Assembly: GCF_009914765.1 (NCBI RefSeq)
Contig: NZ_WYDS01000007.1
Span: 62,001-126,000 of the forward strand
Direction: 5' to 3'
DNA: 64,000 nt
Source: Halodesulfovibrio sp. MK-HDV
GTDB taxonomy: Bacteria; Desulfobacterota; Desulfovibrionia; Desulfovibrionales; Desulfovibrionaceae
Numbering within the stretch: the stretch's first letter is position 1; the number at the start of each line of letters is the position of its first letter. The notes beneath the pieces are model-generated. The model had not been told where the DNA came from, searched no databases, and saw only the letters and a list, made by a program, of their open reading frames with translations. The position numbers were made by a program, and so were the translations under genes. Shown here piece after piece: positions 3,246 to 46,644 of the stretch.

Positions 3246-3441
3246 CCTCAGTCCCCCCAACACGATTTACGTACTTAACTTAGTGATAGTGCTATTATTA
3301 TACAATGTACGATATCTAATGTCTAAAAGAAGTTACACCTTCTCATAGGTTTTTTCTTGTAACTCTACTCTTTACTCTATGTAGAGCAAACGCTACCACA
3401 AATGCATCCCCGACACCAAGTAAGCAGATAACGAGTAAAAA

Positions 3442-23087: not shown

Positions 23088-23629
23088 AATAAACTCCAAA
23101 AAAAAAGATATCCCCAAAAAAAGCAGGGACGCGGCGTGTATCAATTCTAAAAAAAATACACTTTGTTCAAATCAATCTTGGGAAATTACCTTGCATAAAT
23201 AGATAAGTCAACACCTATTTCAATAAATATTGAAGGATCGACCTATTTCATACATACATATCGCTTTGCGTGTCTGTCTTGATATCTAAATTAATGTAAT
23301 TAAGAAGGGTTGGCTGATAGCCGCCCTTTTTTTACATCCAAAATCTACGCTTGAAGAGCTATCACCATTCTCAACTAACTATCCAAACAATTTTTCTCTA
23401 TTGGGTAGGAGTTGATATCTCTTGTTACGATTAACAGCCTCAATGTCGTCAAGAGGTGTAACGCTATCTTTAGATCATCGTTACACCTAGCTAGCACCCT
23501 TCTACCATCGATTTAGGAGAATTCGTAATGATAGCATTTCTGGTGCGAAAACGTGTCGTGAGAATAAATTAAACACAAAATAGCAGCCATAGAAGAAAGA
23601 ACATGACTGTTATAAAGCTAGGAGGGGTA
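23088..23629. other. Leader region with terminator and start of a duplicated unit
   Basis: Includes the RRM promoter side, a terminator-like hairpin (23304-23333, AAGGGTTGGCT with AGCCGCCCTT and T-run), and from about 23340 a stretch clearly homologous to 26450-26714. Shared blocks include the segments ending CACCTAGCTA and CATCGATTTAG. The homologous leaders probably hold the promoter of the downstream modular genes. Confidence 0.6.
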
Positions 23630-23860
23630 ATGCCTAATTCACATCAAGCCATGACCACTAAATAATTTGTGAGTAAAGAAGTTTTCAAATCACATAACTC
23701 TCCTCAAAGGGACACCAGAACTCGCAGAAATGATTTGCAAACTGAATTTTGGAAAGTTATTCCAAACATAGGAGCCTGTGAAGCATGCCAAGCTATGGGC
23801 GAGGGAGTTCATTGGGAAAAACCAGAGCGTCCGCACCCTAATTGTAAGTGTGAAATCGTA
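23340..23860 (+). repeat. Copy 1 of a diverged tandem duplication (pairs with 26450-26938)
   Basis: About 300 bp of leader plus about 230 bp of the following coding module align by eye with 26450-26938. Homology stops abruptly after the codons for HPNCKCEI. Confidence 0.75.
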
Positions 23861-24157
23861 CTGGGGTCAATAAAGGTTGGTATAAATGGATATTTGCAAG
23901 GCATGAGAGATACTGCGTCAAAAAGCTTCCCTGCTGGCCAGTCCATTAATATTACCATTTACAACCGAGGGCTAGGCTTTGATGGTGTTTGGATTACAGT
24001 AGATGGTTCACAAACCAGAGGCACTGGCCATATGATGTGGGGCTCATCCAGAACTCTTAGCTTTTCTAAATTGCATGAAATTCCTGTACCGTGGAAAGTT
24101 CATTTAATGGCTGATGGTGCTGCAGAATGTTGCTTCGAATTCATAATCAGGAACTAA
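23630..24157 (+). pseudogene. Modular protein copy 1: N-terminal HPNCKC module plus unique C-terminal domain; nonsense codon at codon 12
   Basis: Compared with the intact paralogue at 26715, the proper start is the ATG at 23630 (AGGAGGGG ribosome site), but codon 12 is TAA (23663-23665) where the paralogue has a Glu codon. Translation might restart at GTG 23669, giving 162 aa. Residues after the restart share the module SKEVFKSH...DTRTR...QTE.WKV.P, C-x2-C, HWEKPERPHPNCKCEI with 26715 (47 of 62 identical by hand alignment). The following 95 residues are unrelated to that paralogue, beta-rich (INITIYNRGLGFDGVW) and cysteine-containing. HPNC-K/R-C resembles the end of Mu gpF/SPP1 gp7-type domains. 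A toxin-like role is inferred from layout only. Confidence 0.6.
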
Positions 24158-24160
24158 AAA

Positions 24161-24661
24161 ATGAAAAGTATCACTCTATTGTTACTATTAGCACTGTCGG
24201 CTTCTCTGGCATATGCGGAAAGCATCATCCCCATTTCATGCGATGATGTTGCCAGAACTTCTGTAAATCAAACTCTGTCATCAGACGCACCAATCCATGT
24301 GAAAGAATACCCATATATATATCTCACCGGTGTATCTTTAACACCCGAAGCTTATGACAAATTTCACCAGTTTTATAATCCAAACATAATTGAAATTACC
24401 CACCCTGACGGAACAAAAAGCGAACTAAACCCCATTCGCTTATCCACATCCACAGGAATCGTTGCTGTAGACAGTCCGTACAGAATGCACGTAAGTGGCA
24501 AAAGCCTTCTTCTTATTTTTAAAACAAGAGAAAAAGCTTTGGAAGCAGCACAGAAGATATGCCCGCAGATAAAACCGGAAGTTTTCTTTCTGTATGATTA
24601 TCTAGAAAAACAGCGCTTAAGAGAAAAAGCAGAATTAAGTTGGTTAGATAACGAGAACTAA
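24161..24661 (+). CDS. Exported protein, candidate immunity partner 1
   Basis: 166 aa with a signal peptide (LLLLLALSASLAYA, cleavage before ESII). The mature protein is periplasmic and about 145 aa, with two conserved cysteines (ISCDD and KICP). It is paralogous to the protein at 24850 along its whole length (ESIIP.SCD, EYPY.Y, PDGT, YR.HV, KPE.FF). The gene begins three bases after the stop of the modular gene, so the two are surely co-translated. The position directly behind a variable C-terminal domain, the export signal and the tandem duplication suggest an immunity protein; no known family is recognised. Confidence 0.8.
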   Translation: MKSITLLLLLALSASLAYAESIIPISCDDVARTSVNQTLSSDAPIHVKEYPYIYLTGVSLTPEAYDKFHQFYNPNIIEITHPDGTKSELNPIRLSTSTGIVAVDSPYRMHVSGKSLLLIFKTREKALEAAQKICPQIKPEVFFLYDYLEKQRLREKAELSWLDNEN

Positions 24662-24849
24662 CACCGGACTTGGCACTGATGGTGTAATGATTACAACTGA
24701 TGATTCTAACCACCACCCCACCAATCACCTACTGCGATGTTATCCCAATACGTTACACAATCTGTTAAAATGCCTCTTACATTATGAGTAGAATCAATGC
24801 TTGCTGGTGCTGATGAATGTACTTCTGTTATCAAATCTGGAATTAAAAA
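24662..24849 (+). pseudogene. Degraded copy of the variable C-terminal domain of the 23630 gene
   Basis: Between the two exported paralogues, the plus strand reads NTGLGTDGVMITTDDS just after the stop codon, matching NRGLGFDGVWITVDGS of the upstream protein. The last 45 bases (LAGADEC, then AATTAAAAAATG) match its end (MADGAAEC, then AACTAAAAAATG). The middle is shortened and contains stops. So a second domain-plus-partner cassette once stood here and only the partner survives intact. Confidence 0.65.
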
Positions 24850-25338
24850 ATGAAACTTTTCATCCCATTGCTGCTATTAACGCTATCAGCTTCTCTGACA
24901 TATGCAGAAAGTATCATTCCTGTTTCATGCGATGAGATTGCTAGAATTACTATTGTCCAAGCTAGGACATCAGACCCACCTGTCCTCACAGAAGAATATC
25001 CATACGTGTACCCCACCGTATTCTGGCTTAAGCCCGAAGACGCCTCAAAATATCAAGAATTTACTGACCCAAACAAAATCGCAACTATCTATCCTGACGG
25101 GACAAGAGTTGAGTACAGGCCCTTCCTTTTATCAACACCTGAAGGAATTATTGTTAGCAACACCCCATACCGAATACACGTCAACGAAAAACAAATTCTT
25201 ATTTATTTAAAAACCAAAGAAGAAGCATTTGATGCAGCACGGAAGGTGTGTCCAAAGATAAAACCAAAAGCATTTTTTGTGTATCACTACCTCCTAAAGC
25301 AACACTTAAGAGAAAAAGCTGAATTAATGGACAGATAA
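24850..25338 (+). CDS. Exported protein, candidate immunity partner 2
   Basis: 162 aa, full-length paralogue of 24161, with signal peptide (IPLLLLTLSASLTYA) and the same two cysteines. It is preceded by the remnant domain described at 24662, the same order as domain then partner in the first cassette. It is more diverged in the middle, as expected if it protects against a different variant. A terminator follows at 25444. Confidence 0.8.
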   Translation: MKLFIPLLLLTLSASLTYAESIIPVSCDEIARITIVQARTSDPPVLTEEYPYVYPTVFWLKPEDASKYQEFTDPNKIATIYPDGTRVEYRPFLLSTPEGIIVSNTPYRIHVNEKQILIYLKTKEEAFDAARKVCPKIKPKAFFVYHYLLKQHLREKAELMDR

Positions 25339-25443
25339 GCTTTCCATCTATCGGTTATTCAAAGAATGCGGAAAGTGGGAATAATTATGCGAAAGTCTTT
25401 TCTATACTCATAGCCTGAACAGTTAGCGGACATAAAAACAAAA

Positions 25444-25469
25444 AAGGATGGTCTAGAGCCACCCTTTTT
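25444..25469. terminator. Terminator, homologous to that at 27885
   Basis: AAGGATGGT with GCCACCCTT (one mismatch, one wobble) and a T-run. Part of the duplicated block 25436-25711/27880-28158. Confidence 0.7.
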
Positions 25470-25602
25470 CCATTTCTTAGAATAGATACATCGTACACAC
25501 GTTTTCAGCGCCATAAGCACTGCGCATACATAATTCGCAGTCAAGAGGGCGTCCCTCTTGCTCCCGCTGAGAAGCGCCCTCGGAGAGCCGCCGGAGGCAG
25601 CT

Positions 25603-25711
25603 TTACTTACTCACCATAATATCCAAGACAATCTTGTTAGTCTCACACATGCCTGCGCTTCCGAGGCGACCAAGGTTCTTGATGCAAATTTCAATATCAT
25701 CATCCACGATG
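25603..25711 (-). pseudogene. 3' fragment of cyuA
   Basis: Encodes only the C-terminal end (DDDIEICIKNLGRLGSAGMC, then ETNKIVLDIMVSK and stop), almost identical to the end of the intact gene at 28044. There is no start; homology begins abruptly at about 25711. A remnant of the duplication. Confidence 0.85.
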
Positions 25712-25760
25712 TAAGAATCAACACGATCAGACCATAAGACACTAAAGCATCTCATTTCAG

Positions 25761-26081
25761 CTATTGAACAACAGCTTTCATGACCCTGTATAGCAATCTT
25801 ATTTTCTCATCATCTGCTTCGCTGATCATCCGGCTAACTTCTTTTCGTAATTCCAGACAATCTGCTTCGTGAGCATTCTCAAAAAGTTCGCTTGTTGCCA
25901 CCCCAAGTCCCTCGGCTAGTTTACTGACTAAAGTAATAGTCACGTTTGCTTCACCACGCTCAAGCTCGCTAATATACTTTGCCCCAGAGTCAGCTGCAGT
26001 CGCTAGCTGTTCTTGAGTCATTTTCTTAGCTTTACGTAATGTACGTACTCTTTTTCCTAATCGTTCCAGTTCTGTAGACAT
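25761..26081 (-). CDS. XRE family transcriptional regulator
   Basis: 106 aa. Helix-turn-helix of the Cro/CI type in residues about 8-63 (RVRTLRKAKKMTQEQLATAA, then ISELERGEANVTI), followed by a short C-terminal helix pair that may dimerise. It lies between the two copies of the duplicated unit, on the opposite strand, like a control gene for the flanking modules; this is inference. GGAGGA precedes the ATG. Confidence 0.9.
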   Translation of the reverse strand: MSTELERLGKRVRTLRKAKKMTQEQLATAADSGAKYISELERGEANVTITLVSKLAEGLGVATSELFENAHEADCLELRKEVSRMISEADDEKIRLLYRVMKAVVQ

Positions 26082-26133
26082 GGAGTCCTCCTATAAGGGC
26101 ATCATGTCCTTTGAACGAGGACATCAAAACACT

Positions 26134-26233
26134 TTATAACAAGAATTTTACCAGAAAAAGTTCGTTATAGGTTCAATAGCTATTGACTTTTTCCTTTTAT
26201 CAAAAGAATAATATTAAAAAAGTTTGTTATAAG
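26134..26233. promoter_or_regulatory. Candidate XRE operator array and promoter
   Basis: Three related boxes upstream of the XRE gene: TTATAACAAG (26134-26143), TTCGTTATA (26161-26169) and TTTGTTATAA (26223-26232). The first is inverted relative to the others. A plus-strand promoter-like pair TTGACT/AATAAT lies between. Consistent with autoregulation. Confidence 0.5.
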
Positions 26234-26307
26234 ATGAAAAGCGAATTTTATTACTCTCATTCTTTTTCATAGAACTTTTTACGCCTCAACTCCCTACCTA
26301 GAGACTG

Positions 26308-26343
26308 CAACAGCCCGTATCAAACACTCAATACGGGCTGTTG
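26308..26343. other. Perfect 13-bp hairpin
   Basis: CAACAGCCCGTAT/ATACGGGCTGTTG with a 10-base loop (26308-26320, 26331-26343). No T-tract follows directly on either strand. Perhaps the end of a short transcript or a processing site. The rest of 26234-26420 shows nothing else. Confidence 0.5.
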
Positions 26344-26420
26344 CTACATCAATAAGCTGCTCATGTTAATCACCTATGGCATTCTATAAAATTCAATTTT
26401 ATATTCATATCAACTAAAAA

Positions 26421-26446
26421 AGATGGCACATGTGCCACCTTTTTTA
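26421..26446 (+). terminator. Terminator at the left edge of duplicated unit copy 2
   Basis: AGATGGCACA/TGTGCCACCT followed by TTTTTT, in the place corresponding to the terminator at 23304. Confidence 0.65.
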
Positions 26447-26449
26447 CAC

Positions 26450-26938
26450 CCAATCTCTAATTTCAAAGAAGGATACCAAGGCTCAACGAGCTACCCGAAA
26501 TCTCATTATTGAATAGAAGTTGATATTTCTTAGTACGACCAACAGCCCCAATGTCGCCAAGTGGTCTAACGCGACCTTAATACCATAGCGACACCTAGCT
26601 AACGCCTACCTCCCATCGATTTAGCATAATTATTAATGGTAGTATTTCTAGTGCGGGGAAACACTGTCAGATTAAATTGAAGAAAATATAGCAGCGAATA
26701 ACGCAGGAGAATCCATGCCCAAGTCCCATCAAGCCATGACCACTGAAGAATTTGTCAGCAAAGAAGTTTTCAAATCACATGATTCCTCTGGGGCAGACAC
26801 CAGAACACGCAAAGATGATTCACAAACTGAATATTGGAAAGTGCTGCCCAAAGCAGGATCTTGTGACTTATGCCAAGCCATGGGCGAGGGAATTCACTGG
26901 GAAAAACCAGAACGTCCGCACCCTAATTGTAAGTGTGA
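26450..26938 (+). repeat. Copy 2 of the tandem duplication (pairs with 23340-23860)
   Basis: Leader and N-terminal coding module homologous to copy 1; see that entry. Copy 2 keeps the full-length start region. Confidence 0.75.
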
Positions 26939-27152
26939 GATTGAAAAAAGATCGACAAAAGTCGATATAGAACCTGCAATAGAGAATGCTAGAAGATTTG
27001 GAAAAGAATTTAGCGATGTTACCTTACAGTTTTGGAAGTTGCTTGGGATAATTCCAGACCCTAGGCAGAAAGCTGCAGAAGGATTAGCTGATATAATTAA
27101 CGAGATAAATAAAGGGGCTAATGACAATTCCTCTTCAAATAAGAAAAAATAG
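26715..27152 (+). CDS. Modular protein copy 2: HPNCKC module plus different C-terminus
   Basis: 145 aa, intact, with GGAGAATCC before the ATG. Residues 1-76 are the shared module: two cysteines C50/C53 and C72/C74 in HPNCKC, a likely metal or disulfide cluster. Residues 77-145 are unique: a polar, helical segment (DIEPAIENARRFGKEF, then LADIINEINKG) and a Ser/Asn/Lys tail. No signal peptide. The function is unknown. The constant head with exchangeable tail, followed by a candidate partner gene (27290), is like polymorphic effectors. Resemblance of the cysteine pattern to phage head-morphogenesis (MuF) domains is weak. Confidence 0.7.
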   Translation: MPKSHQAMTTEEFVSKEVFKSHDSSGADTRTRKDDSQTEYWKVLPKAGSCDLCQAMGEGIHWEKPERPHPNCKCEIEKRSTKVDIEPAIENARRFGKEFSDVTLQFWKLLGIIPDPRQKAAEGLADIINEINKGANDNSSSNKKK

Positions 27153-27289
27153 TACCCTAGAGAGGGCAAACAGCCTTTGCATTGTGTAGCAACCTGAAAA
27201 GCAATGTTGACAACACTCTGTCATTAAACAATAAATATCGGGATTAAGTTTGAACAACAATAACAAGATGTGTTGTTCATAAAGGGGGA

Positions 27290-27850
27290 ATGGTGCAGTT
27301 TCTTATAGATTGTTTCCGAATTTATCCAGTTTACTTAGCGTTCGTTCTTTTACTTGCAAATATAGCGTGTTTGATTTTCTGTTTTGATTTACGACGTGCT
27401 GTTCCTTATTATTTTTTCCGCAAGGCTGGATTTCAAGGCCGTAAAAATGACATAAGCATTGTAACAAACAGAACAAGGTTTCCGTTTCTTCTCATGGGGC
27501 TTTTTTTTGCCTACCCAGCGTATTGGTTCTTGCAGCTTCCCCTCCAACTATATGGCATGATGAGTATTGTGATAATTTCCATCACATGTTTTTTGTACAT
27601 CACACCGCTGCTTATATTTATCAGTAGTTTTTTCCATGCAGTGGCAATAGAAGATGATATAGTGTACTTCATAGGTATTGTTCCACATTTTTTTACATGC
27701 AGGCAGAACGAAATAAACATTATTGGGGATCAACATGGTTCATGGGGAATCCCAATTTCTACGCTAACGTGTGGGCCAACTAGATACTCTGTAGCTATTT
27801 CTAATGTCCGATCTGTTGTTTTGGACGATCTCGGGAAAGACAAAGAATAA
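27290..27850 (+). CDS. Membrane protein, candidate partner of module 2
   Basis: 186 aa. Two clear hydrophobic regions: one helix at about 12-35 (VYLAFVLLLANIACLIF) and a long hydrophobic stretch at about 65-115 that could form two helices. The C-terminal 70 residues are soluble. AAAGGGGGA is a strong ribosome site. It occupies the place of the exported partners of copy 1 but is unrelated to them. If the upstream protein is a toxin, this would be a membrane-located immunity protein; otherwise unknown. Confidence 0.72.
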   Translation: MVQFLIDCFRIYPVYLAFVLLLANIACLIFCFDLRRAVPYYFFRKAGFQGRKNDISIVTNRTRFPFLLMGLFFAYPAYWFLQLPLQLYGMMSIVIISITCFLYITPLLIFISSFFHAVAIEDDIVYFIGIVPHFFTCRQNEINIIGDQHGSWGIPISTLTCGPTRYSVAISNVRSVVLDDLGKDKE

Positions 27851-27884
27851 CTTAGAGTAGTTACCCCAATCAATACCAACTAAA

Positions 27885-27912
27885 AAGGGTGGCCATTAGC
27901 CACCCTTTTTCT
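27885..27912. terminator. Bidirectional terminator
   Basis: AAGGGTGGC/GCCACCCTT (27885-27893, 27899-27907), A-run before and T-run after. Serves the plus-strand membrane gene and probably the minus-strand cyuA. Confidence 0.85.
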
Positions 27913-28043
27913 ATTTCTCATATTATATAGACCAAGTATACGTTCTCTACGCCAGAAGCACTGCGTATGCATAATTCGCAGTCAAGAGGGCGTCCCTCTT
28001 GCTCCCGCTGAGAAGCGCCCTCGGAGAGCCGCCGGAGGCAGCT

Positions 28044-29321
28044 TTACTTATTCACCATAATATCCAAGATAATCTTGTCAGTCTCGCACATGCCTGCGCT
28101 TCCGAGACGACCGAGGTTCTTAATGCAAATTTCAATGTCGTCATCCACAATACCGTCACCGCCCGGTACTGAAGTACCTTTCATAGCAAGTAACGCAGAG
28201 TTAATTGCAGCTTCTACGCTGGAAGCAACTTTTAGTGCGCATGATGTTTTTGCTCCATCGCAGATCATGCCGGCAATAGTGCCAACCATGTTCTTAATGG
28301 TTCGTTCAATTTCAATAAGCCCACCACCAAGCAGCATAACGATACCGCAACCGGAACCGGTAGCAGCGAGAATTGCACCGCATAATGCTGAAAGTCTACC
28401 GAGATGATGCTTCAAATGAATTGCCAGCAGGTGACTTAAAATAAGCGCACGAGTCATCTCTTCTTCGGACTTGCCCAATCTGCGAGCAAAAGCAGTTACT
28501 GGAATGGTCGCAGTAATACCTTGGTTTCCGCTACCTGAGTTACTCATTACAGGCTGCATAATGCCGTCCATGCGGGCATCTGACGCAGCTGCTGCGAGAC
28601 GGGTTGCAAATGATGTGATGTCATCAGAACGCAAGCCTAATGCAATGTCTTCATCCATGGAGCGGCCGACTTTGAGACCGAAGTCATGCTCGAGACCTTC
28701 CGCAGCAATGGAATCATTAAGACGAGCTGCTTCAAGGATAAATGAAATATCTTCAAACTCTGCTCCGAGAGCAAAGTCATAAATAGCTGACACAGAAAGT
28801 GGCCAAGAATCATCTGAAACTTCTTCATTCTCTAACGGAGTACTTTCGATGACTGCATCATCTTTAGTCACTTCGATGATTCCGGTATGTGTGCGGGCGA
28901 TGGTACAGGTTGCGGTATGGCCTTCTGCTGCAACAGTAGCTTTAGCGAACAGCACTTCTTCTGTTTCTGCTAAATCTACTCGTACCTTTCCATCCACAAT
29001 AAGCTGTTTGGCTGCTTCAACAACCTCTGGGGTCAAATCGCGCAGCACTTCAAGCTGTAATTCAGATTTACCGCCGAGAGCACCAACAGCTACAGCAATA
29101 TGAAGTCCTGTCATTCCGGTGCCCGGAACTCCTACTCCCATACCATTTTTAAGCAGGTTGCCACTTACCTGAACAAGAATACTCTCCGGCTCAACACCCA
29201 ACGCTTCTACCGCACGCGCTGCTGCCAAAGCCGCAGTTATTGGCTCAGTACAACCTAATGCCGGAACTACTTCCCGGTTCAAAATAGTTATAAATTCAAC
29301 CCATTCTTTCTTAATTGTCAT
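28044..29321 (-). CDS. cyuA: L-cysteine desulfidase / serine dehydratase alpha-like protein
   Basis: 425 aa. Member of the CyuA/YhaM (UPF0597) family, oxygen-labile Fe-S enzymes that break L-cysteine to pyruvate, ammonia and sulfide. The family marks PALGCTEPIT, SNSGSGNQGI and the late cysteines (LCGAI, GSGCGIVML, GMCETDKI) that hold the cluster are present. Cytoplasmic. GGTGAG precedes the ATG. Its 3' end is duplicated at 25603. No cyuP-type transporter gene is beside it. Confidence 0.9.
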   Translation of the reverse strand: MTIKKEWVEFITILNREVVPALGCTEPITAALAAARAVEALGVEPESILVQVSGNLLKNGMGVGVPGTGMTGLHIAVAVGALGGKSELQLEVLRDLTPEVVEAAKQLIVDGKVRVDLAETEEVLFAKATVAAEGHTATCTIARTHTGIIEVTKDDAVIESTPLENEEVSDDSWPLSVSAIYDFALGAEFEDISFILEAARLNDSIAAEGLEHDFGLKVGRSMDEDIALGLRSDDITSFATRLAAAASDARMDGIMQPVMSNSGSGNQGITATIPVTAFARRLGKSEEEMTRALILSHLLAIHLKHHLGRLSALCGAILAATGSGCGIVMLLGGGLIEIERTIKNMVGTIAGMICDGAKTSCALKVASSVEAAINSALLAMKGTSVPGGDGIVDDDIEICIKNLGRLGSAGMCETDKIILDIMVNK

Positions 29322-35406: not shown

Positions 35407-36348
35407 CTATCTGGCCACAACGAGTTTGCCGTCTATGAGTGAAAAATAGCAGTTGTAGTAGTATACCTCTCCATCTGGTCGCCTGTAATTAAGTGGAGGC
35501 AATTTATCTTGATCGGCAAGCCTTGCCAACCTGCCGCCTTTATAGAGCTTTAGTTTATAGTCGCTCCAATTTGTTGTGGGCACACTAGAGACACCCTTGG
35601 AAAATTCATCTGGAAAATCTGTGGTTTCAAAATAAAATTCAGGATCTAGGAGATCTGCCACTGCTAGTTCTTGCATGGCTAGCCAGACTGTTTTTTTAAA
35701 AGAGTCGTAGTCATTGTTTTTGAACATTAAACCCAGCTTTATATAGGCGTCCTGCAATTTCGCATAAGTTTTAGGAGAGTCTTGCAGAGAGGTTGCCTTC
35801 GTCCAAGCCCATTCTGGAAGATTCTGTAGTGTGATTTCGCGAGTCATCAGGAAGTCTAAACCTTCTTTGGTTTGATACCCGCCTTCTGTAATATGGGTAG
35901 TTCTATGTTTTTTGGGATATTCTTTAGATGTTTTGCTAGTGGGATAGCCTTTTGGATCAACAGTAGCTGAAATACTTGTCAATTCAAGTTGTTCATCTGG
36001 AAAGTTTGCTGTGAGTTTAATGTCACAAGAGGTTTTTTTATCATATTTAAACGGTGAGAAAAAAAGACCAATTTCGTTTTTGCCATTTTCTAAAAGTGCT
36101 GAGGCTAGGATGCTTGTTTTGACTGTTCCGGACTCATGAGCAAAGTTGTTAAAGACAGGAATTCCATTAACAGTAGCTTCACAAAAGGCTGAGTAACTTT
36201 GTATTTCTAAGAGATATTTGACTGTAACCATCTCCGGTGTGACTTTGCTGGCTACTGTTTCCATCTGATACTCTTTTGGATCTGTCTTACAGCTTACAAG
36301 AAAAAACAATGTAACTAGCAATAATACAATCTTCCCAGTTTTTTTCAT
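35407..36348 (-). CDS. Lipoprotein A, immunity-like paralogue of the T6SS array
   Basis: 313 aa. Signal II with lipobox LVSC (mature Cys near residue 20), so attached to the inner or outer membrane facing the periplasm. The N-terminal beta-rich half (CEATVNGIPVFNNF, ENGKNEIGLFFSPF) and the C-terminal end (YYYNCYFSLIDGKLVVAR) are shared with lipoproteins B and C and, more distantly, with the proteins at 40251 and 41297. Repetition behind a vgrG-effector unit suggests T6SS immunity proteins. It lies 14 bp upstream of PAAR copy 1 in transcription order. Part of a repeated unit of about 1.6 kb. Confidence 0.82.
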   Translation of the reverse strand: MKKTGKIVLLLVTLFFLVSCKTDPKEYQMETVASKVTPEMVTVKYLLEIQSYSAFCEATVNGIPVFNNFAHESGTVKTSILASALLENGKNEIGLFFSPFKYDKKTSCDIKLTANFPDEQLELTSISATVDPKGYPTSKTSKEYPKKHRTTHITEGGYQTKEGLDFLMTREITLQNLPEWAWTKATSLQDSPKTYAKLQDAYIKLGLMFKNNDYDSFKKTVWLAMQELAVADLLDPEFYFETTDFPDEFSKGVSSVPTTNWSDYKLKLYKGGRLARLADQDKLPPLNYRRPDGEVYYYNCYFSLIDGKLVVAR

Positions 36349-36367
36349 TCTACGTGCCTCCTAAACA

Positions 36368-36622
36368 CTATAAAGCCAGCAGGCGATTCGGGTCATTCCA
36401 ATACTCTTTATCAAAAGTTACTGGAGTTGAGTTAGGTAAAAAATGTACTCGACACTGTGGAAATACTTTATAGATTTGCCATCGCACATTTTTTGTGGTG
36501 CTAAATTCCGATATTTTTTTTGCCCACCTACATTTCGTTTTCTTCCTAACTTTTTAGGCTTGGCAACTTTTTTTATTACCCGCCATGGCTCCATCCACCT
36601 TTAAATTTACCTCAGCCCTCAT
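36368..36622 (-). pseudogene. Small ORF copy A, frameshifted
   Basis: DNA nearly identical to 39596-39850, but one extra T in a T-run near 36570 and one fewer near 36545 break the frame after MAGNK. See the entry at 39596. Confidence 0.6.
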
Positions 36623-36677
36623 CTCTTTATAGAATAAAACTAATCCTAACAGCCTATTTTATAGGGCTAATAAAAAA

Positions 36678-36697
36678 AGCAGCCTTTGCTAGCTGCT
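36678..36697 (-). terminator. Terminator after PAAR copy 2
   Basis: AGCAGC/GCTGCT with an eight-base loop; a U-run follows in the minus-strand RNA. The same hairpin occurs at 38294-38313 and 39906-39925. Confidence 0.7.
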
Positions 36698-36719
36698 CTT
36701 TTAAGACATAAAATTTTAC

Positions 36720-37004
36720 TTATCCAATGGTCACCGTCCCACCGCCGACTAGGACACCGCCGCAATTGACAGGGTCTCCGGACCGTGTGGCGGGTTTTCC
36801 ATCAAAGAAAACCGTGCCGGAACCTGCCGCAATGGCACGCCCGTGCTTGGGTGAATTAGGCTTATCATGAGGCTCCAAAGGATCTCCCACTCGAGCTGCT
36901 GGCTTTCCATCAATAGTTATCGTTGGAGAAGCCGCAATAATGGGTGTAGGTGGATAGCCATCATGGTCTGTTCCTATGTCATTCAGCTTTGCTGCATTTC
37001 CCAT
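36720..37004 (-). CDS. PAAR-domain protein copy 2
   Basis: 94 aa. PAAR proteins sharpen the VgrG spike of the type VI secretion system. Four P-A/x-A/T-R-x-G-D-type turns are visible (IDGKPAARVGDPLEPH, FDGKPATRSGDPVNCGG), with His and Cys suited to bind zinc at the tip. GGAGACTCC precedes the ATG. Almost identical to copies 3 and 4. No C-terminal toxin domain. Confidence 0.92.
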   Translation of the reverse strand: MGNAAKLNDIGTDHDGYPPTPIIAASPTITIDGKPAARVGDPLEPHDKPNSPKHGRAIAAGSGTVFFDGKPATRSGDPVNCGGVLVGGGTVTIG

Positions 37005-37019
37005 GGGAGTCTCCTTTTA

Positions 37020-37962
37020 CTATCTGGTCACAACGAGTTTGCCGTCTATAAGTGAAAAATAGCAGTTGTAGAAATACACCTCTCCATCTCGCCGTCTGTA
37101 ATCAAGAGGGGGTGCTCCATATTTATCGACAAGTCGTGCCAGTTTACCGTCTTTATAAAGTTTCAGCTTATAGTCGCTCCAGTTAGGTAGAGGTGCTCCA
37201 GAAACTCCTTTTGAAAACTCGTCTGGAAAGTCTGTCGTTTTAAAATAAAATTCAGGACCTAGAAGATCTGCAACAGCACGTTCTTGCATGGCTAACCATA
37301 CTGTTTTTTTAAATGATTCATAATCATTGTTCTTAAACATTAAGCCCATTTTTATGTAGGCGTCTTGCAGTCTGCTATATGTTCTAGCAGAATCAGGTAG
37401 TGGGGTTGCTTTTGTCCATGTCCATTCCGGAAGATTTTGTAATGTTATTTCACGAGTCATAAGAAAATCTAGCTCATCCTCCGTTTGATACCCACCCTCC
37501 TCTACATTAAGAGTTTTTATATCTTTGAGGATATTCTTTAGATGTTATACTAGTTGGATATCCTTTTTGGTCGACAGTGGCAGTAATACTTGTCAATTCA
37601 ATTGAGTCATCTGGAAAGTTGGCTGTAAGTGTAATGTCGCAAGATGTTTTTTTATCATATGTAAAAGGAGAAAAGAGAAGACCAATTTCATTTTTACCAT
37701 TTTCTAAAAATGCTGAAACCAAGATACTTGTTTTGACTGTGCCGGAATCAAATGAAAAATTGTCAAATACGGGAATTCCATTGACAGTTGCTTCGCAATA
37801 ACCAGCATGTGTTTGAATCGACAATATATATTTGGCAGTCACCATATCCGGGGTAATAGTCGGAGCTATTGTTTCCATCTGATACTCTTTTGAATCTGTC
37901 TTACAGCTTACAAGAAAAAACAAAGTAACTAGCAATAATATAAGCATCCCAGTTTGTTTCAT
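37020..37962 (-). pseudogene. Lipoprotein B, frameshifted immunity-like gene
   Basis: The first 151 codons (37962-37507, lipobox LVSC) match lipoproteins A and C. One extra A in a short A-run near 37521 then gives a stop; removing it restores the frame through VEEGGYQTE into MTREITLQNLPEW...LVVTR. Likely inactive unless slippage rescues it. Confidence 0.85.
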
Positions 37963-37981
37963 TCTACGTATCTCCTAAACA

Positions 37982-38235
37982 CTATAAAGCCAGCAGGCGA
38001 TTCGGGTCATTCCAATACTCTTTATCAAAAGTTACTGGAGTTGAGTTAGGTAAAAAATGTACTCGACACTGTGGAAATACTTTATAGATTTGCCATCGCT
38101 CATTTTTTGTAGTGCTAAATTCCGATATTTTTTTTGCCCACCTGCATTTCGTTTTCTTCCTAACTTTTTAGGCTTGGCAACTTTTTTATTACCCGCCATG
38201 GCTCCATCCACCTTTAAAGTTACCTCAGCCTCCAT
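37982..38235 (-). pseudogene. Small ORF copy B, frameshifted
   Basis: One base shorter than copy C in the T-run near 38153, so the frame changes after KKLGRK and ends early at LTQLQ. See 39596. Confidence 0.6.
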
Positions 38236-38293
38236 CTCTTTATGGAATAAAACTAATTCTAACTCGCCTGCTTTATACAGGGCTAATAAAAAA

Positions 38294-38313
38294 AGCAGCC
38301 TTTGCTAGCTGCT
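38294..38313 (-). terminator. Terminator after PAAR copy 3
   Basis: AGCAGC/GCTGCT hairpin as at 36678, with a T-run on each strand. Confidence 0.7.
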
Positions 38314-38335
38314 TTTTTAAGACATAAAATTTTAC

Positions 38336-38620
38336 TTATCCAATGGTCACCGTCCCACCGCCGACTAGGACACCGCCGCAATTGACAGGGTCTCCGGATC
38401 GTGTGGCGGGTTTTCCATCAAAAAAAACTGTACCGGAACCTGCCGCAATGGCACGCCCATGCTTAGGGGAGTTAGGCTTGTCATGTGGCTCCAAAGGGTC
38501 GCCTACTCGCGCTGCTGGCTTTCCATCAATGGTTATTGTTGGAGAAGCGGCAATAATGGGTGTTGGCGGATAACCATCATGGCCTGTACCTATGTCATTC
38601 AACTTTGCTGCGTTGCCCAT
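38336..38620 (-). CDS. PAAR-domain protein copy 3
   Basis: 94 aa, differs from copy 2 by only one or two residues (GTGHDGYPP in place of GTDHDGYPP). Same ribosome site and following hairpin. It stands 14 bp after lipoprotein C. Confidence 0.92.
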   Translation of the reverse strand: MGNAAKLNDIGTGHDGYPPTPIIAASPTITIDGKPAARVGDPLEPHDKPNSPKHGRAIAAGSGTVFFDGKPATRSGDPVNCGGVLVGGGTVTIG

Positions 38621-38634
38621 GGGTGTCTCCTTTT

Positions 38635-39576
38635 CTATCTGGCCACAACGAGTTTGCCGTCTATGAGTGAAAAATAGCAGTTGTAGTAGTATACCTCTCC
38701 ATCTGGTCGTCTGTAATTAAGCGGAGGGAGATCATATTGATCGACAAGTCTTGCCAGCCTACCACCTTTATAGAGCTTTAATTTATAGTCGCTCCAATTT
38801 GTTGTGGGCACACTAGAGACACCTTTGGAGAATTCATCTGGGAAATCTGTGGTTTCAAAATAAAATTCAGGGTCTAGGAGATCTGCCACTGCTCGTTCTT
38901 GCATGGCTAGCCAGATTGCTTTTTTAAAAGAGTCGTAGTCATTGTTTTTGAACATTAACCCCAGCTTTATGTAGGCGTCCTGCAATTTCGCATAAGTTTT
39001 AGAAGAGTCTTGCAAAGAGGTTGCCTTCGTCCAAGCCCATTCTGGAAGACTCTGCAGTGTAATTTCGCGAGTCATAATGAAGTCTACTTCATTTTCTTTT
39101 AGGTACTTCCCTTCTCGCACAGGTGAAGTTTTATATTTTTGGGGGTATTCCTCAGAGGTTCTGCTGGTTGGATACCCATTTTTATCCAAACTAGCTGTAA
39201 TACCAGTTAATTCAATGGATTTATCTGGAAAATTTGCAGAAAGTTGAATTTTACAGGATGCTTCCTTATTGTTTTCAAATGGAGTGAAAAGAATACTAAT
39301 TTCATTTTTACCATTTTCTAAAAAAGCTGACGCCAAAAGGCTTGTATTAATTGTCCCAAAATCATGAGCCAAGTTATCAATTATGGGGATTCCATTAACT
39401 GTAACTTCACAAAAGGCTGAATGGGTTTCAAATGATAAAATATATTTAGCAGTCACCATATCCGGGGTAATAGTTGGAGCTACTGTTTCCATCTGATACT
39501 CTTTTGGATCTGTCTTACAGCTAACAAGAAAAAACACCGTAACTAGCAATAATAAAATCTTCCCAGTTTTTTTCAT
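38635..39576 (-). CDS. Lipoprotein C, immunity-like paralogue
   Basis: 313 aa with lipobox LVSC and the same layout as lipoprotein A. The C-terminal 140 residues are nearly identical to A, while residues about 40-150 have clearly diverged (DKSIELTGITASLDKNGYPT). Such a mosaic of conserved end and variable middle fits either recombination or selection on a partner-binding face. In order: small ORF (39596), lipoprotein, PAAR. Confidence 0.82.
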   Translation of the reverse strand: MKKTGKILLLLVTVFFLVSCKTDPKEYQMETVAPTITPDMVTAKYILSFETHSAFCEVTVNGIPIIDNLAHDFGTINTSLLASAFLENGKNEISILFTPFENNKEASCKIQLSANFPDKSIELTGITASLDKNGYPTSRTSEEYPQKYKTSPVREGKYLKENEVDFIMTREITLQSLPEWAWTKATSLQDSSKTYAKLQDAYIKLGLMFKNNDYDSFKKAIWLAMQERAVADLLDPEFYFETTDFPDEFSKGVSSVPTTNWSDYKLKLYKGGRLARLVDQYDLPPLNYRRPDGEVYYYNCYFSLIDGKLVVAR

Positions 39577-39595
39577 TCTACGTGCCTCCTAAACA

Positions 39596-39850
39596 CTATA
39601 AAGCCAGCAGGCGATTCGGGTCATTCCAATACTCTTTATCAAAAGTTACTGGAGTTGAGTTAGGTAAAAAATGTACTCGACCCTGTGGAAATACTTTATA
39701 GATTTGCCATCGCTCATTTTTTGTGGTGCTAAATTCCGATATTTTTTTTGCCCATTTGCATTTCGTTTTTCTTTCTAACTTTTTAGGCTTGGCAACTCTT
39801 TTATTACCCGCCATGGCTCCATCCACCTTTAAATTTACCTCAGCCCTCAT
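39596..39850 (-). CDS. Small basic ORF upstream of lipoprotein C, best-preserved of three copies
   Basis: 84 aa, basic (NLKVDGAMAGNKRVAKPKKL), ending WNDPNRLLAL. It is the only copy whose frame is open to the shared stop; A and B are frameshifted. It ends 19 bp before lipoprotein C. The weak ribosome site and broken siblings suggest it may be a decaying remnant, perhaps of an effector C-terminus, rather than an active gene. Not recognised. Confidence 0.4.
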   Translation of the reverse strand: MRAEVNLKVDGAMAGNKRVAKPKKLERKTKCKWAKKISEFSTTKNERWQIYKVFPQGRVHFLPNSTPVTFDKEYWNDPNRLLAL

Positions 39851-39905
39851 CTCTTTATAGAATAAAACTAATCCTAACAGCCTGCTTTATAGGGCTAATA
39901 AAAAA

Positions 39906-39925
39906 AGCAGCCTTTGCTAGCTGCT
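39906..39925 (-). terminator. Terminator after PAAR copy 4
   Basis: AGCAGC/GCTGCT hairpin as at 36678. Confidence 0.7.
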
Positions 39926-39947
39926 CTTTTAAGACATAAAATTTTAC

Positions 39948-40232
39948 TTATCCAATGGTCACCGTCCCACCGCCGACTAGGACACCGCCGCAATTGACAG
40001 GGTCTCCGGATCGTGTGGCGGGTTTTCCATCAAAGAAAACTGTACCGGAACCTGCCGCAATGGCACGCCCGTGCTTGGGTGAATTAGGCTTGTCATGTGG
40101 TTCCAAAGGATCTCCCACTCGCGCTGCAGGCTTTCCATCAATGGTTACCGTTGGAGAAGCTGCAATAATGGGTGTTGGCGGATAGCCATCATGGCCCGTA
40201 CCTATGTCATCCAGCTTTGCTGCATTACCCAT
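39948..40232 (-). CDS. PAAR-domain protein copy 4
   Basis: 94 aa, with KLDDIG where the others have KLNDIG; otherwise as copy 3. It follows the frameshifted immunity-like gene by 18 bp and is the PAAR nearest the vgrG-effector genes, so likely the ancestral one from which the lipoprotein cassettes expanded. Confidence 0.92.
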   Translation of the reverse strand: MGNAAKLDDIGTGHDGYPPTPIIAASPTVTIDGKPAARVGDPLEPHDKPNSPKHGRAIAAGSGTVFFDGKPATRSGDPVNCGGVLVGGGTVTIG

Positions 40233-40250
40233 GAGGTGTCTCCATGCTTT

Positions 40251-41253
40251 TTATCGAGCTATTACAAATTGTTGACCATCAAATCTGAAACGAGGACGAT
40301 ACCCAATATAATCAGAGTCATCACCATTTTTAATAAAATGAATAAGGGGTACACCATCACTAAAAAGCTCAACAATTTTTCTGTTAAAGGAGTAATAGTA
40401 TCGAACATTATCAAATGAAAGAGGTGCTAACGATAGTTCTGGATTTTTCAAAAGCTCTTCAAAATCTAATGATTCAAGAATGACCTCTGGAGATGTCCCA
40501 CCTGCTTCTGCACTTTCAAAGAGAAATTCATGGTGCAATTCTTTCAATTTTTTTAAAATCTTTTCGATTAAATGCATCCCAAAGCTCTTTATATGCGGAA
40601 AATAACGGTGTGCTTCGCTGTTCGGAAAGCGAGGAGGAGTACCCATCTTTTTTTGATAAAACAGGAGAGTCGACCCAGTTCCAGCGACTGTAGTCTTGTG
40701 TTATATCAAAAAACTGCTCCAAGTGATAAACAATCCGACTTGGGTCTTCTCTAAGTTGCACATTCGTTTCCTTTACAATAGATCCAAAATCTGTGTTAAA
40801 TTCTGATGTCATCTTTATTGCTTGCATTGATGAATTAAACTTAACATCATCAGTTGGGTAATAGTTAACTCCTCCAAATATTTTTGTTTCATGGGTGACA
40901 CGGTTTCTCCCTGCAAGGGAAACCTTACAAAAACTATCAGGAACAAATTGGCCGTTACCGTTAAAAGGAGCAACAAAAACGTGTAACTCATTGTTAGTAG
41001 GTCTCAAGTACTCTCCTATGGAAAGCTCCATCTGAAAAGAATCATCCGAACTATCGCTTATTATATGAACGCCATTGATTTTGACTGTCATCTTACAGTT
41101 GCTTTTTTCAATTATCAGGTCATACGATATCTTTTGTGGAGTAAATTCTTTAGCGCGTCCCATAATTGCTATTCCAATAAAAAAAGAAATAAGTAATAAG
41201 AAAACAAAATTATTTCGTGTAAATATTCTTCGTAATGTTAATTTAAATTTCAT
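40251..41253 (-). pseudogene. Membrane-anchored immunity-like gene, frameshift in an A7 run
   Basis: About 333 codons if joined. The N-terminus has one membrane helix (NNFVFLLLISFFIGIAIMG), then a domain like 41297 (VKINGVHIISD, RPTNNELHVFVAPF, FCKVSLAGRNRVTHETKIF, HYLEQFFDITQDYSRWNW). At a run of seven A near 40550 the frame must lose one base to continue as KELHHEFLFESAEAGGTSPE to FVIAR. It is either a one-base insertion or a site of transcriptional slippage. Paralogue of 41297 and of the lipoproteins. Confidence 0.8.
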
Positions 41254-41296
41254 ATCTATGTCTCATTAATTGATAATTGTATGTATTTGGTGGGGA

Positions 41297-42187
41297 TTAG
41301 CGAGAGATAATAAATTTTTCATCGACAAGCCTAAAGTGAGGTACATATGATATGTAATCCGTTTCATCGCCATTCCGAATAAAACGGATTAATCCTCCCG
41401 CATTAGTTAATGTGACAAGTTTTTTGTCCAATGAATACGAATAGCACAAATCGCTAAAAGACAACGTCCCTAACGAGAGCTCTGGATCGTTAAAAAAAGA
41501 AGAAAAACTTAAAGATTCGAAGTAATCGTTAGGTGATATTCCACTTGCTTCTGCGGATTCAACAGAAAACTCTTCATGTAGCTTTTCAAGCCAATCCAAA
41601 TCTTTTTTATTAAAGGCATTCCACAACTGCTCATAACTATCAAACAATGCTGTCCGTAATTTATACGGAAGGGGGCTACTGTCACCATTTTGCCTAGAAA
41701 GTTCCAGAGAATTAGCCCAATTCCAGACTTTGTACTCTGAATTAATATCGAACCCTTGAACCGCGATGTAGTGATTAGAATCATCATTAAAAACAATATC
41801 CGTAGCGTTTCTTGGCTTTCCAAGATGCTGATTTATTAATGGCAATTGCTTGATAGCTGTTAATGAAGCGTTACGCTGATGATCTCTAGTTGGGAAATAA
41901 TGAATTCCAGCAAATGCACTAAGCTGCTCTGTTTCAAAGCGATCTCTGGCAGCAAGTGTTACCTTACAGTAGCAAGAATCATCGACAAATTCAGTCGCTC
42001 CTTCGATGGGATACATAACTAATCGTAATACATTATTTGTTGGCTTAAGATATTCACCCACGCCTATAAGACAGTAAATAGGACCATCCTCATCACAGCG
42101 AATGACACAAAAACCATTAATATAAATTTCAAACGCAACATTATTTGTATCAACATCAATACGATAATCGAGTTTTTGTAGAGTCAT
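41297..42187 (-). CDS. Immunity-like paralogue without export signal
   Basis: 296 aa from the ATG at 42187 (TAAGGATTC overlaps the effector stop, so translation is coupled). No signal peptide or membrane helix: MTLQKLDYRIDVDTNN. It shares with its neighbours the layout EIYINGFCVIRC, LKPTNNVLRLVMYP, CYCKVTLAARDR, YFPTRDHQRNASLTAI, and the C-terminal SLSFSSFFNDPELSLGTLSF and FRLVDEKFIISR. Directly behind the candidate effector, it is the best candidate for the cognate immunity or effector-binding protein. Family unknown to me. Confidence 0.78.
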   Translation of the reverse strand: MTLQKLDYRIDVDTNNVAFEIYINGFCVIRCDEDGPIYCLIGVGEYLKPTNNVLRLVMYPIEGATEFVDDSCYCKVTLAARDRFETEQLSAFAGIHYFPTRDHQRNASLTAIKQLPLINQHLGKPRNATDIVFNDDSNHYIAVQGFDINSEYKVWNWANSLELSRQNGDSSPLPYKLRTALFDSYEQLWNAFNKKDLDWLEKLHEEFSVESAEASGISPNDYFESLSFSSFFNDPELSLGTLSFSDLCYSYSLDKKLVTLTNAGGLIRFIRNGDETDYISYVPHFRLVDEKFIISR

Positions 42188-42200
42188 CAGTCTTGAATCC

Positions 42201-43736
42201 TTAAGCATCAATAATGTAGTGAGGTGGATTATCACTTTTTTCTGCCCAAACAACGTCAGCTGTTAGGAATTCATACCCTACATCACCAGAAACAGTCTCA
42301 CTCGCGAGCTCTTCTGAAAGATCTTCTTCAGACTTTTTGCTTGTGGTATATTTCCCAGCTTTAACACGAATAGAAAAATGAGAACGTATGCCTTCATGAT
42401 TGAACACGACACCAACACCTTTTTCATCAAAAACCAAACTACTTTTGACTGCTGTTTTTGTGTTTGCCTCGGCCATCAATTGTCCTTTTACACATAATAT
42501 TTTCACACCTGCTTCTACCCCAGCTCTTATTTGCAGGCTGAGCTTGCTTCCCATCTCTCCCTTAAACTCTTCTTCATTATTTTTACTGACTAGAGTCCCT
42601 TCACCATTAATCACTTCCCCCGTTAATACAACATCAATATAAAATAACCCGTACATGTCATTTTTTCTTGCGCCGCGCTCAACTCTTTCCTTCATCTCTT
42701 GTAACTGATCCCTTAATTCTTTCCATGCCTTGCCCCCTGCGGGACTTCCTAAGAGAGTAATTAAGACACCAATAACATCTATAACAATCTCAGCACCGAT
42801 AAGAGGAGCCATTTTTAACGCATAATTATACTCAAAATAAGGAGCATCATTTTGACATTTTAATTCCTTGAATCCTGACAGCTCAAGCTGAGGTGGAATT
42901 ATTGTGAGCTTTTTTATTAGCCCGCCCTCATTCTTATTCCCACCCAGTACATGGTTTCCTATTTTTTTAAAGAGTTCAGAAGTCTTATGTGTAAGAGATT
43001 TTTTATGTTTAAGCCTTGAATCAGATTGTACCAACGTACAATCACTTTTTTTTGTTTTATCTCCAATGGAAACTGTACTTTCGAATACTACATTAAAATC
43101 TTCTGGATAAATCTCTTTCCCAATATCTTTCCATTTCTTCTTATTGGCTTTTTTCTGTAACTTAAGAGCATCTTCTCTACTATATTCATGTCTCTTCTTT
43201 ATTCTTCCATTTGCCTCTGCATTTACCTTGCTTCCAAGTGTAATTTTTCCATCCAACTTGTACTTAGGGTACATCTTAAGAGTAGTTGTCTGAACAGTGC
43301 CAGAACAGTCAGTTGTTGTTGAAATAAATTCTTTTGGTAATATTTTTTCAGGAGATCTCTCTAAGGCTAGCTGTAGCCATTCCCATGGATCTAGCTCTCT
43401 TAAAAATTTTTCCCCATCGTATGACAGTTTATATGTCTCAGACAACTTAGCTGGAGTAAGCCGAGCAAGCTCCGTATCCCCCTCTTTATCATTTTTTTCT
43501 AAAATAATAGTCTCAGGACAATTCGCTAATACACAAACTCCGTTGGGAATAAGTACTGATGTTATGGAAACTTTTTCATTATCTAGAAAAGTAAGTTCTT
43601 TGTTAGCACCAGAGCTGTTCGGATAATCAATATTTGCCCCCTCAGGAAAACCCGACATTGTATACCCAGCTGTACAATGGGGTGGCTGATGACATGCAAA
43701 ACACATTATTTCATTACTTTTTTCTTTTTCTGCCAT
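42201..43736 (-). CDS. Candidate T6SS effector with a hydrophobic helix
   Basis: 511 aa. No signal peptide. The N-terminal 60 residues are cysteine-rich (CFACHQPPHC, GVCVLANC) and could form a small metal-bound cap. The middle is Lys-rich. One long hydrophobic segment (LIGAEIVIDVIGVLITLLG, about residues 315-335) and a Gly/Val-rich C-terminus follow. The place after the DUF4123 adaptor and before immunity-like genes is that of T6SS cargo effectors; the hydrophobic helix suggests a membrane-disrupting kind. No enzymatic motif found. AT-rich compared with core genes. Confidence 0.7.
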   Translation of the reverse strand: MAEKEKSNEIMCFACHQPPHCTAGYTMSGFPEGANIDYPNSSGANKELTFLDNEKVSITSVLIPNGVCVLANCPETIILEKNDKEGDTELARLTPAKLSETYKLSYDGEKFLRELDPWEWLQLALERSPEKILPKEFISTTTDCSGTVQTTTLKMYPKYKLDGKITLGSKVNAEANGRIKKRHEYSREDALKLQKKANKKKWKDIGKEIYPEDFNVVFESTVSIGDKTKKSDCTLVQSDSRLKHKKSLTHKTSELFKKIGNHVLGGNKNEGGLIKKLTIIPPQLELSGFKELKCQNDAPYFEYNYALKMAPLIGAEIVIDVIGVLITLLGSPAGGKAWKELRDQLQEMKERVERGARKNDMYGLFYIDVVLTGEVINGEGTLVSKNNEEEFKGEMGSKLSLQIRAGVEAGVKILCVKGQLMAEANTKTAVKSSLVFDEKGVGVVFNHEGIRSHFSIRVKAGKYTTSKKSEEDLSEELASETVSGDVGYEFLTADVVWAEKSDNPPHYIIDA

Positions 43737-43745
43737 AACGGTTGT

Positions 43746-46524: not shown

Positions 46525-46589
46525 GTGTGTACTCTTTTCTCTAAGGTTTCTAAATCTATGGGGCGAACAACCACGACCCGTTTACAGTA

Positions 46590-46622
46590 AGACCCGCACA
46601 ATCATAGAGAATGTGCGGGTCT
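46590..46622 (-). other. Hairpin between hcp and vgrG
   Basis: AGACCCGCACA/TGTGCGGGTCT (46590-46600, 46612-46622) without a T-tract. Perhaps partial termination or mRNA stabilisation giving more hcp than vgrG. Confidence 0.65.
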
Positions 46623-46644
46623 GTATAATTCGTATTCGATAAAA

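Follow-up and report, generated by a model that had tools for sequence, protein, structure and literature searches.

Tandem candidate toxin-immunity cassettes in Halodesulfovibrio whose leader resembles the tail of a phage scaffold-position protein, a possible tag for loading into phage-like capsids

What do two neighbouring genes encode when their products share a cysteine-bearing head, differ completely in their tails and are each followed by a gene for an exported or membrane protein, and by what route could such products reach other cells? The question is raised by a stretch of 64,000 nucleotides (hereafter the window) from Halodesulfovibrio sp. MK-HDV (genome G000; assembly GCF_009914765.1, contig NZ_WYDS01000007.1, positions 62,001 to 126,000), in which two tandem cassettes occupy 23.4-28.0 kb. 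By its architecture this is very probably a polymorphic toxin-immunity locus. With moderate confidence, we favour the reading that both cassettes belong to a toxin-immunity system in which a tag resembling the tail of a phage scaffold-position protein would load the toxins into capsids like those of phages or gene transfer agents (GTAs). The cassettes contain the following features, where MuF-C denotes the C-terminal part of the phage MuF domain.

23630 to 23668, plus strand: leader of copy 1, interrupted in the sequence by a TAA at 23663-23665.
23669 to 24157, plus strand: copy 1 toxin-like protein read from GTG, with a MuF-C cysteine module and a 97-residue beta-sandwich tail (translation, tail clustering).
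24161 to 24661, plus strand: candidate immunity protein 1, with a signal-peptide-like N-terminus (by eye) and a conserved Cys (family linkage 38/38, alignments).
24850 to 25338, plus strand: candidate immunity protein 2, a paralogue of 24161 (family linkage; structural model with pLDDT 84).
26715 to 27152, plus strand: copy 2 toxin-like protein, an open frame with leader tag, linker, MuF-C module and 66-residue tail.
26736 to 26774, plus strand: leader tag MTTEEFVSKEVFK of copy 2, matching the C-terminus of the scaffold-position protein (searches, shuffles, motif scan).
26817 to 26945, plus strand: MuF-C cysteine module of copy 2 (W..P..C-x2-C..HPNCKC; alignment, profile comparison).
27290 to 27850, plus strand: candidate membrane immunity protein of copy 2 (hydrophobic windows at residues 4-38 and 80-125 in a hydropathy scan).

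A sequence-only reading of this DNA had described a four-cysteine head common to both proteins and followed by wholly different tails, and the translations together with a genome search bear this out. The stretch SKEVF...HPNCKCEI is identical at 47 of 62 positions (counted by eye), residues 1-76 are 76% identical in the genome search, and C50, C53, C72 and C74 (copy 2 numbering) are invariant, together with HPNC, in an alignment of 11 sequences; the tails past the head, of 97 and 66 residues, are unrelated. A profile built from 11 heads, both window sequences included, matches the window copies with E-values of about 1e-28 to 1e-30, and these values, the relatives found with the copy 2 head alone and the relatives in named genomes together exclude chance. 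Only two heads were found in G000 by genome searches. A Pfam scan placed the window toxin-like proteins in no family at all, hence without Rhs repeats or core, and an AlphaFold model of 23687-24154, within the copy 1 protein, reached a pLDDT of 88.

Two details of the sequence-only reading had to be revised. It took the copy 1 protein to run from ATG 23630, a frame that the TAA breaks and that resumes only at GTG 23669, so that most of the N-terminal leader is absent from copy 1. It also had a partner gene following at once in each cassette, which is true of copy 1 (4 bases past the toxin stop, at 24161, with the paralogue next at 24850) and not of copy 2, where the partner begins a loose 138 bases past the stop (27290). 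The partners themselves were described correctly as far as can be predicted, as two exported paralogues or a membrane protein; signal peptides and membrane segments were assigned by inspection of the sequence throughout, with a hydropathy scan for 27290 only. As read from the DNA, copy 2 is the complete version, and copy 1 has lost its leader to the stop codon. Stops inside the head match were also seen in relatives, for example L103, L104, L106, L111 and L133.

To better understand how heads and tails are combined, we compared relatives across the family. The head profile matches 56 of 288 genomes and 10 of 44 genera. From 83 fetched loci plus the window, 87 open reading frames (ORFs) with a head were obtained at E<1e-3, of which 82 had a tail of at least 30 residues and 5 were dropped. 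A head found always with the same tail had been named as an outcome that would refute the toxin/immunity reading; instead, the 82 tails form 14 clusters, 8 of them singletons, the copy 2 tail among these. The larger clusters comprise 38 copy-1-type beta-sandwich tails, 17 tails mostly on Rhs proteins, 12 Ntox44-type tails, 3 LD-transpeptidase-like tails and two pairs. Certain singletons are short or truncated (L135 resembles a shortened member of the second cluster), and the real number of families is therefore somewhat below 14. Ntox44 was matched in L034 above the Pfam cut-off (5e-7) and YkuD in L110 below it (0.004). A pattern scan of named genomes gave 66 matches, of which 60 were relatives; the titles of 20 of these relatives read Gastranaerophilales or Gastranaerophilus. 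In other phyla, the domains past the head that exceeded the cut-off were M23 peptidase (3e-28 and 1e-33) and a serum-amyloid-A-like domain (7e-19), and a CHAP-like domain was found below the cut-off (2e-4) in an alphaproteobacterial metagenome-assembled genome (MAG). The lipocone paper (PMC12419801) counts prokaryotic serum amyloid A (SAA) as a tip of polymorphic toxins and also names MuF domains.

The partner genes follow the tails. Of the copy-1-type tails, 38 of 38 are followed by a single exported family, which includes a diverged branch. Elsewhere among the 7,060 ORFs of the loci this family is confined to L106 and L111, in both of which the same tail stands behind a head region interrupted by a stop codon. 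Since the partner-family profiles were built from the downstream ORFs, the absence of the family elsewhere is the informative part. In the part of the partner sequences that was viewed, a membrane-type partner follows 8 of 12 Ntox44-type tails and an exported one 4 of 17 Rhs-type tails; an exported partner on the opposite strand lies beside three M23 tails and the CHAP-like tail. The copy 2 partner matches 4 of 288 genomes, all Halodesulfovibrio: G000 itself, G005 (79%), G002 (48%) and, weakly, G007 (22%, E 2e-4). These partners are candidate tail-specific immunity genes, and the expected linkage was found for the copy-1 type. The 14 tail clusters, the Ntox44, M23 and SAA tails and the 38/38 partner linkage support the polymorphic toxin and immunity architecture that had been proposed from the letters. 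The predicted wall- or lipid-acting tails of relatives, with their exported or membrane partners, suggest the periplasm or the membrane as the probable site of toxin action.

The family had been called undescribed; its head is partly known. The cysteine module corresponds to the last part of Phage_Mu_F (PF04233), about positions 60-111 of 112. The best match, in L186, stays below the curated cut-off (2e-6, 29.0 bits against 29.6), as does that of L210, which spans positions 19-111; matches at E<=0.1 occur in 12 of 33 copy-1-type proteins, and the Pfam scan gave none in the window proteins themselves. Profile comparison reached a probability of 93 with a Leuconostoc phage MuF protein and failed with relatives of Mu gpF. 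These alignments identify the cysteine module as the C-terminal half of the MuF domain of phages. In L193, from a MAG, a head with a serum-amyloid-A-like tail (2710-3666) lies near amidase-like and capsid-like ORFs and resembles a prophage MuF toxin (all by eye).

The leader in front of this module has a different likeness. A search of 10 Halodesulfovibrio genomes with the 34-residue leader returned, besides toxins, two weak matches (E 0.026 and 0.049 per genome), both at the extreme end of a protein of 267-280 residues encoded directly before a phage-type major capsid gene, here called the scaffold-position protein. The leader ('AMTTEEFVSKEVFK') matches the C-terminus of this protein ('SMSTEDFLRNEVFK') in Halodesulfovibrio, as in the alignment of the G005 toxin leader 'AMSTEEFMKNEVFR' with the same scaffold tail. 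The capsid gene was found in 9 of the 10 genomes including the query, at 78-95% identity apart from the query itself, and in 9 of 9 capsid-positive genomes the scaffold-position protein ends in the motif: as SMSTEDFLRNEVFKTR in G000, G001, G002, G005, G008 and G009, and in related forms in G003, G006 and G007. Its last 16 residues are the same in G000, G002, G005 and G008. For each of four Halodesulfovibrio toxin leaders, the score against the G000 tail was equalled in 0 of 5000 shuffles. The strict motif occurred only in toxin leaders and in these scaffold tails when the fetched loci were translated in six frames (2.24 million residues, overlapping loci counted more than once); it is present in 4 of 83 fetched head loci (L032, L033, L094, L096), all from capsid-positive genomes. 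A DNA pattern for the motif hit four contigs of a viral collection, in 4/4 at this scaffold tail before a capsid gene. The scaffold proteins of P22- and T7-like phages bind the capsid protein by their C-termini. The leader appears to carry a scaffold-tail-like sequence, and the tail itself may serve in targeting; we give a little better than even chances to the leader being a capsid-loading tag.

The presumed carrier was analysed in G000 on contig 18 (L282/L288, G000:C18:91689). Among 10 ORFs scanned against PHROGs, two had no match, and the others included a terminase (4e-63), a portal-type head-tail adaptor (7e-148), tail proteins (7e-48 and 6e-204) and an internal virion protein (2e-12). 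In both G000 and G008, terminase and portal are separated by a symporter-like gene (so named by eye), which is similar in the two genomes. No integrase or replication genes were recognised by eye in the listed ORFs of about 29 kb of G000 and 20 kb of G008, and the capsid protein had 0 matches in 50,697 phage records. The carrier may be a domesticated, GTA-like element. It resembles gene transfer agents in that a phage-type structural cluster is kept across the genus, with a shared host-like gene between terminase and portal; it would differ in that toxin loading is not a known feature of GTAs. A second copy of the capsid cluster was noted in G000 (L285, G000:C1:111448; 56% identity), with an upstream protein ending in DEEMSTEDWLKEAMN, a partial motif.

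The relation between tag and tail was then examined in the further head-positive genomes, of which 2 of 53, G082 and G302 (MAG UBA6814), carry the capsid gene at E<=1e-5. In G302, tag and tail have changed together (ISTEEFYRRLFA / ISTEEFYRQLFA): the scaffold-position protein ends in AISTEEFYRQLFAKKHN, and EISTEEFYRRLFANE lies close to the N-terminus of a toxin encoded on another contig (0/5000 shuffles). A second G302 toxin carries SLEDYYHDLFA, whose score is reached by 25 of 5000 shuffles. The second gene after the G302 capsid gene (L290, 5211-5966), cut by the contig end, encodes an Rhs-like protein that opens with three copies of the motif. Overall, the own-lineage tail gives the highest score for 6 of 7 toxins. 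The change of tag and tail together and the tripled tag suggest selection on the tag. That the head might be an adaptor for phage-like particles, as the sequence-only reading had surmised, gains support from the match within the genus and the covariation in a second lineage.

Rhs proteins also show that what had been taken for one single head is really two pieces, a leader tag and a MuF-C module, between which an Rhs core can lie. At the syntenic locus of G005, an Rhs protein with the same leader (MHNPHQAMSTEEFMKNEVF; RHS_repeat 7e-14) is followed by a small membrane-type ORF, then by a headless remnant of the copy 2 tail with a membrane partner (79% identical) that adjoins the flanking gene. 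In genus g8, one leader of about 170 residues (LTTGLVLYGETEPAEMQIENLWKIV and variants) is found both on Rhs proteins (L088, L091, L121, L122) and on Rhs-less leader-head-tail proteins (L035, L041, L083, L093; all by eye). A leader common to both forms points to a general plan of leader, optional Rhs core, cysteine module, tail and immunity gene. As with Rhs polymorphic toxins, many relatives have the module behind the end of their Rhs core, and displaced orphan cassettes are found with surviving immunity genes; unlike those toxins, the window proteins have no Rhs core and appear as 'mini' versions with the same leader.

The MuF relation raises the alternative that these are ordinary MuF-type toxins, in which the module alone targets the capsids of a resident prophage and the leader is a functionless relic of recombination with a scaffold gene. 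The module is indeed the C-terminal half of PF04233 by the profile match given above, and the MuF domain is proposed as a capsid-targeting domain in PMC11699363. The MuF polymorphic toxins of temperate phages, as treated in Jamet 2017 (PMC5576092) and, for Bxa, in PMC11699363, share with our family a homologous cysteine module, a variable C-terminal toxin, an adjacent immunity gene and proposed capsid delivery; other papers drawn on were PMC3482391, PMC6006170 and PMC10435454. However, the first half of the MuF domain is absent here: the family matches only about the last 50 of 112 positions, so a complete N-terminal MuF domain was not found, and in front of the module stands a scaffold-tail tag or else an Rhs core. 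The window proteins sit between host genes, outside any phage head module and not after a portal gene, although the tagged Rhs gene of G302 does lie near the capsid gene. A functionless relic also fits poorly with a tag that changed together with its scaffold tail and was tripled in the G302 Rhs protein. We consider this alternative improbable.

Several observations weigh against capsid loading. The first tag match alone is about at chance level, so that the case leans on the tests that came after it. The four Halodesulfovibrio toxins are relatives of one another and do not count as independent, and the tag evidence therefore amounts to two lineages, the second of which is one MAG, 84% complete. 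The G082 toxin does not match its own tail significantly (676/5000 shuffles) and scores 28 with it against 34 with the G302 tail, and Halodesulfovibrio leaders still reach 32-45 with the G302 tail, compared with 47-56 for a Halodesulfovibrio tail; these cross-lineage scores make the covariation graded, not absolute. This capsid gene is missing from 51 of 56 head-positive genomes, which have other leaders where viewed, such as QHIGDDQLVYGMPKHM and RSELTTGLVLYGETEP in Pseudodesulfovibrio and other genera. G000 also possesses genes of a type VI secretion system (T6SS), certain ones in the window. The capsid label, finally, comes from a weak PHROG match (7e-4) and position, and the best PHROG of the scaffold-position protein is named 'protease' (6e-13), so that its tail could serve another purpose.

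This last point leads to the explanation that leader and scaffold tail are both recognised by some other partner, such as a phage protease, a chaperone or a membrane site, with no packaging implied. The protease match and the shortness of the motif would fit it. Yet the motif stands at the extreme C-terminus of a protein encoded directly before the capsid gene, which is where scaffold proteins of P22- and T7-like phages bind their capsid protein. We hold recognition by another partner to be the least probable of the alternatives considered.

The T6SS genes suggest a different route, in which the proteins would be T6SS cargo effectors and the leader a sorting signal of the MIX, FIX or RIX kind, with the strain's own T6SS as the delivery apparatus. 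VipA occurs at two loci in G000, and genes for Hcp, VgrG and DUF4123 lie in the window. The cargo of T6SSs typically includes Rhs proteins and wall-targeting tails, and a short conserved N-terminus, a polymorphic C-terminus and neighbouring immunity are shared with MIX, FIX and RIX effectors. A check of the head's linkage to secretion genes had been suggested, and none was seen for the sheath gene, which occurs in 75 of 288 genomes, 14/56 with the head vs 61/232 without it (Fisher p=1), although the single family model used for scoring can miss divergent systems. In addition, G005 and G008 (99% estimated completeness) have leader-tagged effectors without a sheath match, of the 42 head-positive genomes that are sheath-negative only 6 gave a match to PAAR, and the leader matches a phage scaffold-position tail instead. 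Delivery by the T6SS is rated unlikely. The T6SS effector module of the window lies on the minus strand at 35407-47160, with Hcp (46645-47160), VgrG (44554-46524), DUF4123 (43746-44561) and a cargo gene (42201-43736; 511 residues, no Pfam match), followed by similar-looking exported or lipoprotein-like ORFs (35407, 37020/37507 split, 38635, 40251/40528, 41297) that may be an immunity array.

How the two cassettes came to lie in tandem can be read from the remaining features of the locus:

23399 to 23629, plus strand: DNA upstream of copy 1, included in the duplication (76% identical to the copy 2 upstream region over about 195 columns).
25437 to 25707, minus strand: remnant derived from the 28044-29321 gene (its 3' end together with the DNA downstream), marking the end of cassette 1 (88% over 271 bases).
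25761 to 26081, minus strand: Xre-type regulator (HTH_3, Pfam) upstream of copy 2.
28044 to 29321, minus strand: intact flanking gene, SDH_alpha / cysteine-desulfidase-like, whose 3' end is duplicated.

The duplicated unit exceeds the head, with 76% identity in the upstream DNA, 84% in the head DNA and 88% in the flanking-gene remnant (25437-25707 vs 27878-28148). As upstream DNA, head DNA and flank remnant are all repeated, the cassette arose with its downstream flank by tandem duplication. Copy 1 may persist mainly for its immunity genes. A stretch similar to 25861-26344 was found by blastn upstream of the G002 cassette (L033, 110-584).

In the mechanism that we propose, the toxin would consist of an N-terminal leader tag, an optional Rhs core, a MuF-derived cysteine module and an exchangeable toxin tail, its gene being followed by one or two genes for exported or membrane immunity proteins. 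The leader would copy the C-terminal tail of the scaffold-position protein, encoded directly before the capsid gene, and would dock the toxin on the capsid protein during assembly, so that the toxin would be packaged in a phage-like, possibly GTA-like, particle. It would then be released at the envelope of a recipient, where immunity proteins would protect kin. Encapsulins direct cargo into an HK97-type shell by a short cargo-loading peptide. The tag proposed here would do likewise; it differs in being N-terminal and scaffold-tail-like, with a toxin-like cargo accompanied by immunity genes. If a toxin starts with a copy of the scaffold docking tail, any cassette that gained the tag would be packaged and delivered to recipient envelopes.

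For Halodesulfovibrio, we see about an even chance of a domesticated phage-derived particle armed with exchangeable toxins, in which the tag coevolves with the scaffold tail and kin are protected by exported immunity proteins; other genera may use other tags and capsids. MuF toxins had raised the idea of polymorphic toxins carried by capsids, with the toxin fused to a capsid component. If our reading is true, a short tag covarying with the scaffold tail would be a simple and testable loading code, other leaders could be decoded by comparison with scaffold C-termini of the same genome, Rhs toxins would be linked to capsids, and a benefit of keeping phage-like clusters in host genomes would be suggested, the delivery of toxins among relatives.

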